64,000 nucleotides of DNA, taken from Thermoplasmata archaeon. GTDB lineage: Archaea > Thermoplasmatota > Thermoplasmata > Lutacidiplasmatales > UBA184. Below the pieces are notes generated by a model. That model worked only from the letters and a program-made list of their open reading frames with translations, ran no database searches and was not told where the DNA came from. Positions 19,018 through 56,200 of the stretch are shown piece by piece; position 1 is the first letter of the stretch; each line of letters begins with the position of its first letter. The stretch covers positions 62,001 through 126,000 of the forward strand of contig JAKIVS010000002.1 in assembly GCA_022750435.1 (NCBI GenBank). The letters run 5' to 3'. A program made the position numbers and the translations under genes.

Positions 19018-19956
19018 TTAAGTGGTTCGGACGGCGGCCCCGGGGGCGGGGTGGGCGGCGCCGACGGCGGCCCCCCACGAGGGGAATCCCAGCGCATCGA
19101 GCCGGGGTGGGAGTTCGGCCGCCAAGCGACCGAACACGCCGATCCCGTCGAAGGCCACGGCGGTGCCGACTTCGACCGCGCGCGCCCCAGCGAGCGCGTA
19201 CTCGATGGCGTCGTCGACCGTACGGATCCCGCCAATCCCGACGACCGGAATCTTCAGAGCTTCGTACAGCTGCCAGACGACCGCGAGGCCCACCGGCTTG
19301 ATCGCGGCGCCGCTGAGCCCTCCAAGACCGTGGGCCAGCACCGGCCGCCGCAGGTTGAGGTCGATCGCCAGCGCCCGGAGCGTGTTGATCGCGCTGACGG
19401 CGGCGGCGCCGCCCCGTTCGGCGGCAAGTCCGAGCGCGACCGGGTCGGCCGTGTTGGGAGTGATCTTGGCGATGACCGGTACGGTGACCGCACGGACCAC
19501 CGCCCGAACGACGCGCTCCACCTCGGCCGGGTCGGAGCCGACCTCCGAACCGAGTCCCTTTGCGTGCGGGCAAGAGAGGTTCAACTCGAGCGCGAGAACG
19601 CCGGTCGACGCCATCCGACGGGCCACCGCGGCAAACGCATCCGCGTCTCCCGCGAACACCGAGCCGATCGTGGGGACGCCCGCCGCGACCGCGACCGCCA
19701 CCTCGCGGGGGTACTCCTCGATCCCCGGGTTCGGCAGGCCCATCGCATTCAGCATCCCCCACTGCTCGTAGGTGTCGATGGTCGGGTTCGGGTAGCCGTC
19801 CCGCGGCGCCTCGCCGATCGACTTCGTCACGACGCCGCCGGCCCCGGCCGCGTAGGCGCCCTTGAGCGACTCCCCGCTCTCCCCCCAAATCCCAGACGCA
19901 AGGAGGAACGGGTTCCGCAGCCGGATTCCCGCGAGTTCTACCCCGACAGCCGCCAC
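19018..19956 (-). CDS. pyrD: Dihydroorotate dehydrogenase, catalytic subunit (1B type)
   Basis: PyrD oxidises dihydroorotate to orotate with FMN. The 312-residue TIM barrel has LRNPFLLASGIWG, GGVVTKSIG, the catalytic loop ELNLSCPHAKGLG with Cys as base (class 1B), GGLSGAAIKPVGL and VVGIGGI. The GTG at 19956 lies about 28 nt from a TATA box shared with clpB, so a leaderless start is likely; upstream in-frame codons precede the predicted transcript. It is followed by pyrK. Confidence 0.93.
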   Translation of the reverse strand: MAAVGVELAGIRLRNPFLLASGIWGESGESLKGAYAAGAGGVVTKSIGEAPRDGYPNPTIDTYEQWGMLNAMGLPNPGIEEYPREVAVAVAAGVPTIGSVFAGDADAFAAVARRMASTGVLALELNLSCPHAKGLGSEVGSDPAEVERVVRAVVRAVTVPVIAKITPNTADPVALGLAAERGGAAAVSAINTLRALAIDLNLRRPVLAHGLGGLSGAAIKPVGLAVVWQLYEALKIPVVGIGGIRTVDDAIEYALAGARAVEVGTAVAFDGIGVFGRLAAELPPRLDALGFPSWGAAVGAAHPAPGAAVRTT

Positions 19957-22621: not shown

Positions 22622-23566
22622 GTGTCGACCGCGGTGACCGTCGCCATCGTCGGCGCCAAGGACCAGGCGAAGGAACTCGGCAAGAAGGGGACGACCTCCG
22701 ACGTCACGCTATTCAACGCCGTCCGCGACGGCCACGCGGTCACGCTCATCGAACCGACGCAATTCCCCGAGAAGTTCGCCTCGCTCCTCTTCACCCTCGC
22801 CATGGCCGACCGGACCGTCTTCCTCGTCGATACGATCGGTCGCGAGATCGCGGAGACCGCCGCGGTGATCGACCTGTTCGACACGCCCGTCGACATGGTG
22901 CTCGCCGCCGGAGTTGGGGAAAGCGAACTTCGGAAGGCGTTCAAGGGGACCCGCCTCGAGACCGCGCCGGCGATGGCGCTCGACTACCCCAAGCTTCGCG
23001 CGACCATCGACTCCTGGACGTCCGGAGAATCGCCGGGCCCGACCATGGTCCGACTCGACCATGCGTTCCCGGTGAAAGGCGTCGGGGCCGTGGCGCTCGG
23101 CGTGGTGCGTCGCGGGACGCTGAACGCGCACGAGAAGCTCCGGCTCTATCCCACGGACAAGCTCGTCGAGATCCGGTCGCTCCAGGTCCACGACGTCGAC
23201 GTGAAGAGCGCCCAGTCCGGGGAACGCGTCGGCGTGGCCGTGAAGGGCGTGGACGCCGACGAACTGTCGCGCGGCCAGGTGCTCGCGCCGGAAGGGACGC
23301 TCCGCGTGGGGACCGAACTCGTGGTGACGCTCGACAAACGGTGCCGGTACTACAAGGGAGACATTTCGGAGGGCCTCGTCGGGAACCTCCTTGTCGGTCT
23401 GCAATTCGTGCCCGCGACGGTCACGGCGGGAAAGGCCCCCGGTCCGATCACGGTGACGACCGACCGCCCCGTGGCCTTCGCGCCTGGCGATCCGGCCATC
23501 TTCGCCGACCTCTCCGCGGCCCCGGGCCCGCGCGTGGCGGGGCGCCTGCTCCTGCCCAGCGCCTAG
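22622..23566 (+). CDS. EF-Tu/SelB-like protein lacking the P-loop
   Basis: The 314-residue protein has the layout of a translational GTPase: a Rossmann-like G domain (1-135), EF-Tu domain 2 (HAFPVKGVGAVALGVVRRGT, KLRLYP, VKGVDADELSRGQVL) and a domain-3-like end. The G1 loop GHVDHGKT is missing: after VAIVGA comes KDQAKELGKKGTTSDVTLFN. DxxG and NKxD are also not evident, so it probably cannot hydrolyse GTP. It resembles the archaeal EF-Tu domain-2 paralogues related to SelB. The GTG follows the clpB stop by 6 nt, so the two are probably co-transcribed. Confidence 0.72.
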   Translation: MSTAVTVAIVGAKDQAKELGKKGTTSDVTLFNAVRDGHAVTLIEPTQFPEKFASLLFTLAMADRTVFLVDTIGREIAETAAVIDLFDTPVDMVLAAGVGESELRKAFKGTRLETAPAMALDYPKLRATIDSWTSGESPGPTMVRLDHAFPVKGVGAVALGVVRRGTLNAHEKLRLYPTDKLVEIRSLQVHDVDVKSAQSGERVGVAVKGVDADELSRGQVLAPEGTLRVGTELVVTLDKRCRYYKGDISEGLVGNLLVGLQFVPATVTAGKAPGPITVTTDRPVAFAPGDPAIFADLSAAPGPRVAGRLLLPSA

Positions 23567-23594
23567 AGCCGCCGCGGCCCATCCGGCGCCGCGA

Positions 23595-23648
23595 TTACGG
23601 CTTCTTCTTCTCCTTGCTCTTCTCGTTGCAGCCGCAGGTATCGCACAT
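23595..23648 (-). CDS. 17-residue CxxCxC microprotein
   Basis: A tiny frame encodes MCDTCGCNEKSKEKKKP. It has an excellent ribosome-binding site: GGAGGTG ends about 8 nt before the ATG. The CxxCxC head resembles the metal-binding N-terminus of HypB-type proteins, and the tail is lysine-rich. It lies between the EF-Tu-like gene and PAN, in about 200 nt with no other gene. A metal-binding or signalling role is inference. It is too short for standard gene finders. Confidence 0.55.
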   Translation of the reverse strand: MCDTCGCNEKSKEKKKP

Positions 23649-23770
23649 CGCTCGGCACCTCCGGTCGTCGAGACGGGCCCACCGTATCTCAATCCCCGCG
23701 CGGACTCCCAGACGGTGCGTCCACCCGAGGAAGAAACTCTGGGCGGGCGGAGATCCGGTCGGGTCGCGAT

Positions 23771-24976
23771 TCAGGCGAACATGGTGACGGACTCCTTGTG
23801 GAGTTCCTCTTCACCGATGACCTTCTCGACCGCGCGCTCGAAGTCGACGACGGACACGGTCTCGCGCTCTTCCCGGATCGCCCACATGCCGGCCTCCGTG
23901 CAGATCGCGCGGATGTCGGCCCCCGTGGCGCCCTCGCACCGGTTGGCGAGCGACTCGAAGTCGATCGCCTCCTTGAGGGCCATGCCGTGGGAGTGGATCT
24001 TGAAGATCTCGACGCGGCCCAGGTAGTTGGGGACCGGGACCTCGATGATCCGGTCGAACCGGCCCGGGCGGAGCAGCGCCTCGTCGAGGATGTCGGGGCG
24101 GTTCGTCGCCGCGATGATCTTGACGTTGGAGAGCGGCTCGAAGCCGTCCATCTCGGCGAGCAGCTGCATGAGGGTCCGCTGGACCTCGCGGTCGCCGCTG
24201 GTGGCGACCTCGAGCCGCTTCGCGCCGATCGAATCGACCTCGTCGATGAAGATGATCGTCGGGGCCTTCTCGCGGGCGAGCTGGAACAGCTCCCGGACGA
24301 GGCGCGCGCCCTCGCCGATGTACTTCTGAACGAGTTCGCTGCCGACCAAGCGGACGAACGTCGCGTGGGTGTGGTGCGCCACGGCCTTCGCGATCATCGT
24401 CTTGCCGGTGCCGGGCGAGCCGATCAGGAGAACGCCCTTCGGCGGGTCGACGCCGACGCGCTTGTAGAGGTCGGAGCGGAGGAGCGGATACTCGACGGCC
24501 TCGCGGATCTCGCGGACCTGGTCCGTGAGCCCACCGATGTCCGCGTAGGTGACCGACGGCTTGTCGACGATCTCGCTCGCGGCGACGAGCGGGTCGAGGG
24601 AGGCGGGGAGGACGCCCATCACGGCGAGCGTCTGCTTGTTGAGCGCGACGCGCGAACCGACGGTGATCTTCTCGTGCTCGACCGTCTCGGCGGAGTTGAC
24701 GACGAAGTCCGGGCCGGTGGAGGACTTGACGACGACGCGCCCGTCCGTGAGGACGTCGCGGACGCTGCCGACGATGAGCGGAGGGTAGCGGAGCCGGTCG
24801 AGCTCCGTCTTCAGCCGCTTGACCTCGCGCTGGAGTCGGAGGATCTCGGCCTCCATGTAGTGCCGCTCGCTCTCGACGCGCTTGATCGCCTCGGCGAGCT
24901 GGCTGTTGCGAAGTTCGAGGAAACTGACGCGGTCGAATCCTTCTCCGGACGACGCCGACGCATCGGAATCCGCCAT
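23771..24976 (-). CDS. pan: Proteasome-activating nucleotidase PAN
   Basis: PAN is the archaeal AAA+ hexamer that unfolds substrates and feeds them to the 20S proteasome. The 401-residue protein has an N-terminal coiled coil (16-62), an OB domain (66-125) and an AAA+ domain with Walker A GSPGTGKT (186-193, Ser instead of the usual Pro), Walker B IIFIDEVDSIG and the second region of homology TNRPDILDEALLRPGRFDR. It ends TMFA; hydrophobic-Phe-X is a variant of the HbYX motif that opens the 20S gate. It diverges from the pantoate kinase gene. Confidence 0.95.
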   Translation of the reverse strand: MADSDASASSGEGFDRVSFLELRNSQLAEAIKRVESERHYMEAEILRLQREVKRLKTELDRLRYPPLIVGSVRDVLTDGRVVVKSSTGPDFVVNSAETVEHEKITVGSRVALNKQTLAVMGVLPASLDPLVAASEIVDKPSVTYADIGGLTDQVREIREAVEYPLLRSDLYKRVGVDPPKGVLLIGSPGTGKTMIAKAVAHHTHATFVRLVGSELVQKYIGEGARLVRELFQLAREKAPTIIFIDEVDSIGAKRLEVATSGDREVQRTLMQLLAEMDGFEPLSNVKIIAATNRPDILDEALLRPGRFDRIIEVPVPNYLGRVEIFKIHSHGMALKEAIDFESLANRCEGATGADIRAICTEAGMWAIREERETVSVVDFERAVEKVIGEEELHKESVTMFA

Positions 24977-55714: not shown

Positions 55715-56044
55715 TCAGGCCGACCGGAGCCACTCCGCGAGGGGGAGGAGATTGCCGTAGAGGGCCTTCCCGCGAGCGGTGAGGTCGTAGGACACGGGTG
55801 CCCCACGGACCGGTTCCTTCGCGGTGCGAACGACCAGCTTGGCCTTCTCTAGGGCCCGGAGCGTCGCTGTCAACGTGGCCGGGCTGACCCGCGGGAGGGA
55901 GCGTTGGATCGGACCGAACCGGAGGGTCCCGTGATAACCCAGAAGGGTGACGACGCACATTGCCCACTTCTTTCCCACGACGTCGATCAATCCGACCGGA
56001 GGGCAGGGGCACTCGAGCTCCCCATCGCAGCACATCGCGTCCAC
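55715..56044 (-). CDS. Cys-rich HxlR-family regulator of arsenic-type locus
   Basis: The 109-residue winged-helix protein has the HxlR core VVGKKWAMCVVTLLGYHGTL, TLTATLRALEKAKLVVRT and SYDLTARGKALYG. Its N-terminus MDAMCCDGELECPCPP holds four cysteines, with another in the core (WAMCVV), so thiol sensing of As(III), Sb(III) or another soft metal is likely. It is divergent from the Cys-rich peptide, arsC and channel genes. GTG 56044 is about 25 nt from the shared TATA box, so leaderless; ATG 56035 is an alternative. Confidence 0.8.
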   Translation of the reverse strand: MDAMCCDGELECPCPPVGLIDVVGKKWAMCVVTLLGYHGTLRFGPIQRSLPRVSPATLTATLRALEKAKLVVRTAKEPVRGAPVSYDLTARGKALYGNLLPLAEWLRSA

Positions 56045-56107: not shown

Positions 56108-56200
56108 ATGACCGAGTGTTGCAAGTGTTGCTGTTGCTGCTGCTGCGAGACCGAGAGCGGCGGCGCGCAGAGCCCGACCAAGTGCTGCCGGACCGAGTGA
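56108..56200 (+). CDS. 30-residue Cys-rich peptide (11 Cys), possible metalloid chelator
   Basis: The frame encodes 30 residues with 11 cysteines, including a run of seven (MTECCKCCCCCCCETESGG, ending TKCCRTE). GGGGGTG lies 4-10 nt upstream of the ATG, a good ribosome-binding site. The TGA overlaps the arsC ATG (TGATG), so it is the first gene of the operon. The composition is metallothionein-like, although the motif is not from a known family. Binding of As(III) or other thiophilic metals is inference from context. Confidence 0.65.
   Translation: MTECCKCCCCCCCETESGGAQSPTKCCRTE

Follow-up and report, generated by a model that had tools for sequence, protein, structure and literature searches.

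Can a reading frame of 17 codons in an intergenic gap of an uncultured Thermoplasmata archaeon be a gene in its own right, and what might a peptide made of little more than a CxxCGC motif and a run of lysines do in the cell? Genes of fewer than 20 codons mostly escape annotation and homology search, and standard gene finders usually skip frames of such size. The frame considered here was found in a stretch of 64,000 nucleotides from the lineage UBA184 (hereafter the window), and its start, stop, Shine-Dalgarno element and motif can each be tested by searches that do not impose them. Its product is moreover short enough for direct synthesis and metal titration (peptides CDTCGCKSKKKP and MCDTCGCKSKKKP).

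A short reading frame between two genes

The features of the locus, in window coordinates, are the following.
23648..23595, minus strand: microprotein ORF MCDTCGCNEKSKEKKKP, 17 codons plus TAA, ATG start
23662..23656, minus strand: Shine-Dalgarno element GGAGGTG, spacer ccgagcg, 7 nt to the ATG
23685..23693, minus strand: weak TATA-like element ATTGAGATA, about 40 nt 5' of the ATG, a tentative assignment with a poor match
23771..24976, minus strand: PAN-type proteasomal AAA ATPase (AAA and Prot_ATP_ID_OB_C domains), upstream neighbour
22622..23566, plus strand: EF-Tu domain 2 protein (GTP_EFTU_D2), convergent downstream neighbour

The frame (ATG TGC GAT ACC TGC GGC TGC AAC GAG AAG AGC AAG GAG AAG AAG AAG CCG TAA) lies on the minus strand at exactly the coordinates of the original prediction, inside an intergenic gap of 204 nt (23567-23770); the ATPase gene, which has the same orientation, ends 122 nt before it, and 28 nt separate it from the end of the convergent gene. 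The nearest upstream in-frame stop is 55 codons from the ATG with no ATG, GTG or TTG in between, which leaves this ATG as the sole common start. The string start-C-x-x-C-G-C has a single match in the whole window; when the window was simulated 30 times with a first-order Markov model to gauge the chance expectation, the mean was 0.0.

A second Cys-rich microprotein had been claimed for the window. The scan took in ORFs of 8-70 aa that contain at least three Cys and lie mostly in intergenic DNA, and it returned two further frames.
56108..56200, plus strand: poly-Cys ORF MTECCKCCCCCCCETESGGAQSPTKCCRTE, 30 codons, 11 of them Cys; further in-frame starts, from 56069 on, would lengthen it
19254..19427, minus strand: doubtful ORF with three or more Cys, mini-gene motif absent
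The poly-Cys ORF does not carry the motif of the mini-gene. Divergent from it lies an ORF on the minus strand (55715-56044) that also begins with a Cys-rich stretch (MCCDGELECPCPP), and the two are perhaps a metallothionein and its regulator.

Evidence for a conserved coding frame

The window frame is one copy of a mini-gene that recurs across one family of uncultured archaea from acid soils and mine drainage, with the consensus M-C-[DEN]-T-C-G-C-x-x-K-K-K and a length of 12-18 codons. In a search of 103 genomes of this family that imposed no start and barred only codons beginning with C before the first Cys, 48 of 49 matches had ATG, GTG or TTG directly before that Cys, the lone exception being TCC in a genome (G062) that has a true copy too; the reversed control gave 1 match. 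A complementary search left the Cys free: its pattern was a start codon, 24 unspecified bases, KKKP and then TRR, and it gave 31 matches (reversed control 1), 29 of which read MC[DN]TCGC while 2 are not of the family. With these 2 left out, the tail-anchored set (25 distinct sequences among 29) has pS of 0.638 and pN of 0.0055 over codons 2-7, i.e., pN/pS of 0.009; this replaces a value of 0.04 from the 49 motif-chosen members, which was biased by the search pattern.

The 49 members compared (48 from the no-start search and a second copy in G028) start with ATG (41), GTG (7) or TTG (1) and stop with TAG (27), TGA (13) or TAA (9); length is 13 in 37 of them and the last residue is Pro in 35. 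Synonymous changes affect Ser (TCC/TCG/AGC), Gly (GGC/GGG/GGT) and the stop codon, in all three forms. Position 3 varies between D, E and N, and Asp is therefore no fixed ligand. Nucleotides 22-36 of the tail, untouched by the search pattern, show an identity of 0.79 between members, compared with 0.27-0.37 in the flanking blocks, and the basic tail described in the original prediction is a family trait (Lys at positions 10, 11 and 12 in 44/49, 45/49 and 46/49 members). The same is true of its strong ribosome-binding site: beyond the GGAGGTG placed 7 nt before the window ATG, SD-like 4-mers occur at -20..-4 in 45/49 members, as opposed to 8/49 and 10/49 in two control stretches.

Further upstream, A+T content rises at -44..-38, and many family members have TTGATA/TTCATA/TTAT-like boxes about 40 nt before the ATG; TATA-like boxes were counted upstream in 25/49 members and in 1/49 for the downstream control, the pattern for this count having been drawn up once the sequences had been inspected. 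The A+T rise and these boxes suggest that the mini-gene has its own promoter. An in-frame start lies further upstream in 32/49 members, where the frame alone permits a longer product, and a T-run that may be a terminator lies within 70 nt downstream in just 7/49. Purifying selection in one frame and the accompanying translation signals are those of a protein-coding sequence, and on this comparison of sequences the mini-gene is very likely real.

Distribution in Archaea

UBA184 belongs to the order Lutacidiplasmatales (PMC9287336), and a genome of the UBA184 lineage is known from acid mine drainage (PMC8357290). By the no-start pattern search, the mini-gene is present in 42/103 family genomes and in 24/36 good ones; the 61/103 genomes with no match include 12 of the 36 good ones, which makes the mini-gene accessory. 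At the level of the genus, the pattern start-TGY-N6-TGY-GGN-TGY-N12-AAR, with its reversed form as control, gave 28 matches in 27/78 genomes (16/25 good ones), and 27 of the 28, once translated, are stand-alone ORFs of 13-18 aa. The other, L041 (55 aa, in G088), is unrelated, and dropping it leaves 26/78 genomes (15/25 good ones).

A class-wide search found a match in 53 of 400 genomes. The matches inside the family, the one in G088 excepted, are copies of the mini-gene and come from genera g1, g24, g25, g26 and g28. Outside it there are 12; the six of these that were translated comprise five proteins of 50-52 aa and of a different kind (L047-L051) and a 10-codon ORF (L052) that looks like chance, and the other six fall in families f13, f16 and f25. 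A draw of 389 genomes from the phylum had 20 with a match, and the three outside the family represent one type of 51-aa protein. Reversed controls gave 0 matches in the genus search and in an earlier one, and 1 in the class search, as in the no-start and no-Cys searches. As far as genomes were sampled and matches translated, the mini-gene appears to be confined within the phylum to one family.

The original prediction had proposed looking in related archaea for a conserved MCDxCGC frame with an upstream ribosome-binding site, and both turn out to be conserved. Its idea of a wider class holds insofar as the mini-gene recurs in the family, but the reason given for it—two Cys-rich microproteins in one window—fails, the poly-Cys ORF having a different motif.

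Occurrences outside Archaea

The strict pattern MCDTCGCxxKKK found 27 loci in named genomes, all of them ORFs of 12-16 aa. Two records labelled 'bacterium' (L069, identical to G394, and L089, identical to G083) are family members by sequence. Two other cases, one in Bacillota (L076, MCDTCGCGGKKK) and one in Planctomycetota (L080, MCDTCGCRDKKKKKPK), look truly bacterial, with mis-binning a possibility; both have an SD-like element and use codons of their own. Their relatives, searched with patterns in which some codons were fixed, yielded no further short form: for one case the match was in 1/198 genomes, that genome itself, and for the other 4/147 genomes matched, one of them the source genome and the others with two longer proteins rich in Cys and a 15-codon ORF whose tail is different. 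Viral contigs gave 0 matches to the mini-gene, and a virus origin was rejected on this count.

Longer Cys-rich proteins were seen in these bacterial groups. A relative of the Planctomycetota genome encodes a 36-aa protein, MCDTCGCTPCKKCGKPIKNGVCVGCNKKADDCSCKK, on the minus strand behind AAAGGAGGTGAT (L121), with no Pfam or NCBIfam match, and the Bacillota genome G408 encodes on the plus strand a 56-aa protein starting MCYNCGC behind a GGGGGTG element (L118).

A candidate soft-metal peptide

From sequence and by analogy, we put at about even the prospect that the product is a free-standing carrier or buffer peptide for a soft metal, with copper and nickel as candidates. The mini-gene, probably under its own promoter, would then encode a cytosolic soft-metal-binding peptide. 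Methionine aminopeptidase removes Met before a small second residue, Cys counting as small, and its action here would expose an N-terminal CDTCGC. A single metal ion would then be held by three thiolates, and probably by the N-terminal amine, in the manner of HypB. The lysines of the tail may keep the complex in solution, or may attach it to nucleic acid or to a partner that is acidic, and the peptide would act as a metal buffer or a delivery peptide.

The likeness to HypB had been pointed out in the original prediction, and both the spacing of the Cys residues and their N-terminal place agree with published descriptions of that protein. E. coli HypB is reported to bind Ni(II) with sub-picomolar affinity via Cys2, Cys5, Cys7 and the N-terminal amine (PMC7055735). 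The HypB-type motif is found in 49/49 motif-chosen members and in 29/31 matches where it was not forced. The likeness does not extend to the GTPase domain, the ORF ending after 12-18 codons. HypB (TIGR00073) scored above cut-off in 0/103 family genomes, with weaker matches in 28/103, and in 4/14 control genomes; a HypB fragment was rejected on these grounds, and for the same reason a link to hydrogenase is unsupported. The HypB peptides CTTCGCG and MCTTCGCGEG are described as binding Cu with Ka ~10^6 per M, with no appreciable dependence of affinity on added end residues and no Ni or Zn binding by calorimetry (PMC6848105). As described there, the calorimetry conflicts with a nickel reading and lends no support to a need for a free N-terminal Cys; the two reports disagree on nickel.

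HMA domains scored above cut-off in 3/103 family genomes and are present in 13/14 control genomes. They are equally missing from family genomes that have no peptide, and two of the three carriers (G263 and G394) have it, so that the lack of HMA is background, neither a correlation nor a sign of replacement by the peptide. Haem-copper oxidases and blue copper proteins have been described in Lutacidiplasmatales (PMC9287336). Since the order has these proteins, yet 100/103 family genomes show no HMA domain, copper(I) is put first among the candidate metals; nickel comes second, by analogy with HypB, and zinc, bound in a half-knuckle, would be third.

A more ambitious version of the carrier reading is possible, though we hold it only tentatively: a mature peptide of about a dozen residues, made up solely of a metal-chelating N-terminus and a lysine handle, may be the copper (or nickel) carrier of a lineage largely without HMA chaperones and HypB. 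It might equally tentatively be placed among the smallest conserved independent genes, one that arose or arrived singly in bacteria too. If the peptide does carry a metal, a metallochaperone can be reduced to little beyond its binding motif.

Alternative roles for the peptide

A zinc half-knuckle is a weaker candidate that still deserves consideration. Read in this way, CDTCG resembles one zinc knuckle, CPXCG, in which Asp has taken the place of Pro, and one Zn(II) would be shared by two peptides, or by a peptide and a partner protein, in a structural or regulatory role. In haloarchaea, C(P)XCG knuckles are reported to be the defining feature of a class of very small proteins, and other Thermoplasmatota families have longer proteins (L047-L051 and L188-L190) with a similar N-terminus and extra Cys pairs. 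However, the mini-gene product has a single knuckle as opposed to at least two in the haloarchaeal class as described, its third Cys is kept in 29/31 matches found with no Cys imposed, and a knuckle does not need the fixed N-terminal place seen in 48/49.

It is unlikely that the lysine tail is the active part, with nucleic acid or the ribosome as its target and the Cys motif as a switch that responds to redox state or metal. The prevalence of Lys at positions 10-12 speaks for such a role, but the Cys part is less variable than the tail, in which E, D or P can occur (the tail reads QNEEKSPEKKE in G077), and no conserved partner gene was seen.

Genomic neighbourhoods and the leader-peptide question

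Neighbouring genes were called by our own codon-bias rule, and some may be false. Among the 49 members there are 16 kinds of upstream gene, with hppA (H_PPase) immediately upstream in 24; the downstream gene is on the opposite strand in 25, on the same strand in 23 and unknown in 1. The PAN site is common to the window copy and G082 (L155). A functional link to the H+-pyrophosphatase gene was rejected, the window copy lying by the PAN gene and others in 15 further upstream clusters, and the hppA association is read as an inherited position. No conserved metal gene was seen adjoining the mini-gene in the members' neighbourhoods.

In 14 loci from 14 match-negative genomes, none had a three-Cys ORF of 8-40 aa in the 420 nt behind hppA; the scan detected its positive control, G018, and a further partial locus (L182) was without the hppA end. 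A tree of hppA from 26 loci with the mini-gene and 11 lacking it needs seven gains or losses in full, and no fewer than four if just the starred branches are considered. Given the varied neighbourhoods and these gains and losses, the mini-gene is an accessory one that undergoes loss or movement, and the family as a whole is not one of leader peptides.

A leader peptide or uORF, whose translation would control the next gene, is accordingly very unlikely. The same-strand arrangement in 23/49 archaeal members would allow it, as would the Planctomycetota case L080, in which a same-strand DUF255 thioredoxin-fold gene follows. But a same-strand gene to be regulated is not the rule in the family, in which the next gene runs opposite in 25/49 (1 unknown) and upstream genes are of 16 kinds with mixed downstream orientation, and it is the tail and stop of the ORF that are conserved, not the downstream DNA (identity ~0.30). 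Most improbable of all is a chance ORF, a non-coding RNA or an opposite-strand pyrimidine tract with no peptide made: the lysine codons do read as a CTTCTTCTT tract on the plus strand just past the end of the convergent gene, but such a tract leaves the Cys part unexplained, there is no Rfam match in 23300-24000, and the synonymous changes, the pN/pS of 0.009 and the conserved SD all argue against it.

Comparison with known systems

A full-text search for MCDTCGC-type strings, with subscription literature mostly outside its reach, had as its sole match a paper on HypB peptides, and among the matches listed for archaeal micro-proteins, very short conserved proteins, HypB peptides and archaeal ribosome profiling there was no paper on such a gene. 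The GMSC small-protein catalogue is stated to cover ORFs of 30 bases or more (PMC11364881).

Metallothioneins have many Cys and a metal cluster, whereas the members read have three Cys each. HMA copper chaperones (CopZ, Atx1), with a ferredoxin-like fold of ~70 aa and a CxxC, would share with the mini-gene product only the proposed job, and there is no sequence likeness. The C(P)XCG zinc-finger micro-proteins of Haloferax volcanii are, as described, likewise archaeal and very small, with a CxxCG knuckle-like element, but they have at least two motifs in fewer than 70 aa, whereas the mini-gene product has one knuckle-like element (D for P) and one further Cys in 12-18 aa; the window peptide has one CDTCG only.

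Several other Thermoplasmatota families have 50-52-aa proteins of the form MC[DEK][TS]CGCxxxGK...CCG..MK, which share the N-terminal MCxxCGC and, in most of those seen, an SD element, but have several more Cys pairs and are three times longer. Those listed (L047-L051 and L188-L190) end in a CCGxxMK-like stretch, and the two that were scanned matched no Pfam or NCBIfam model. The N-terminal site of E. coli HypB (CXXCGC), as it is described, has in common with the mini-gene product Cys2, Cys5, Cys7, Gly6 and the extreme N-terminal place; there, however, the motif forms the first few residues of a GTPase, while here the motif and a lysine tail are the whole protein.
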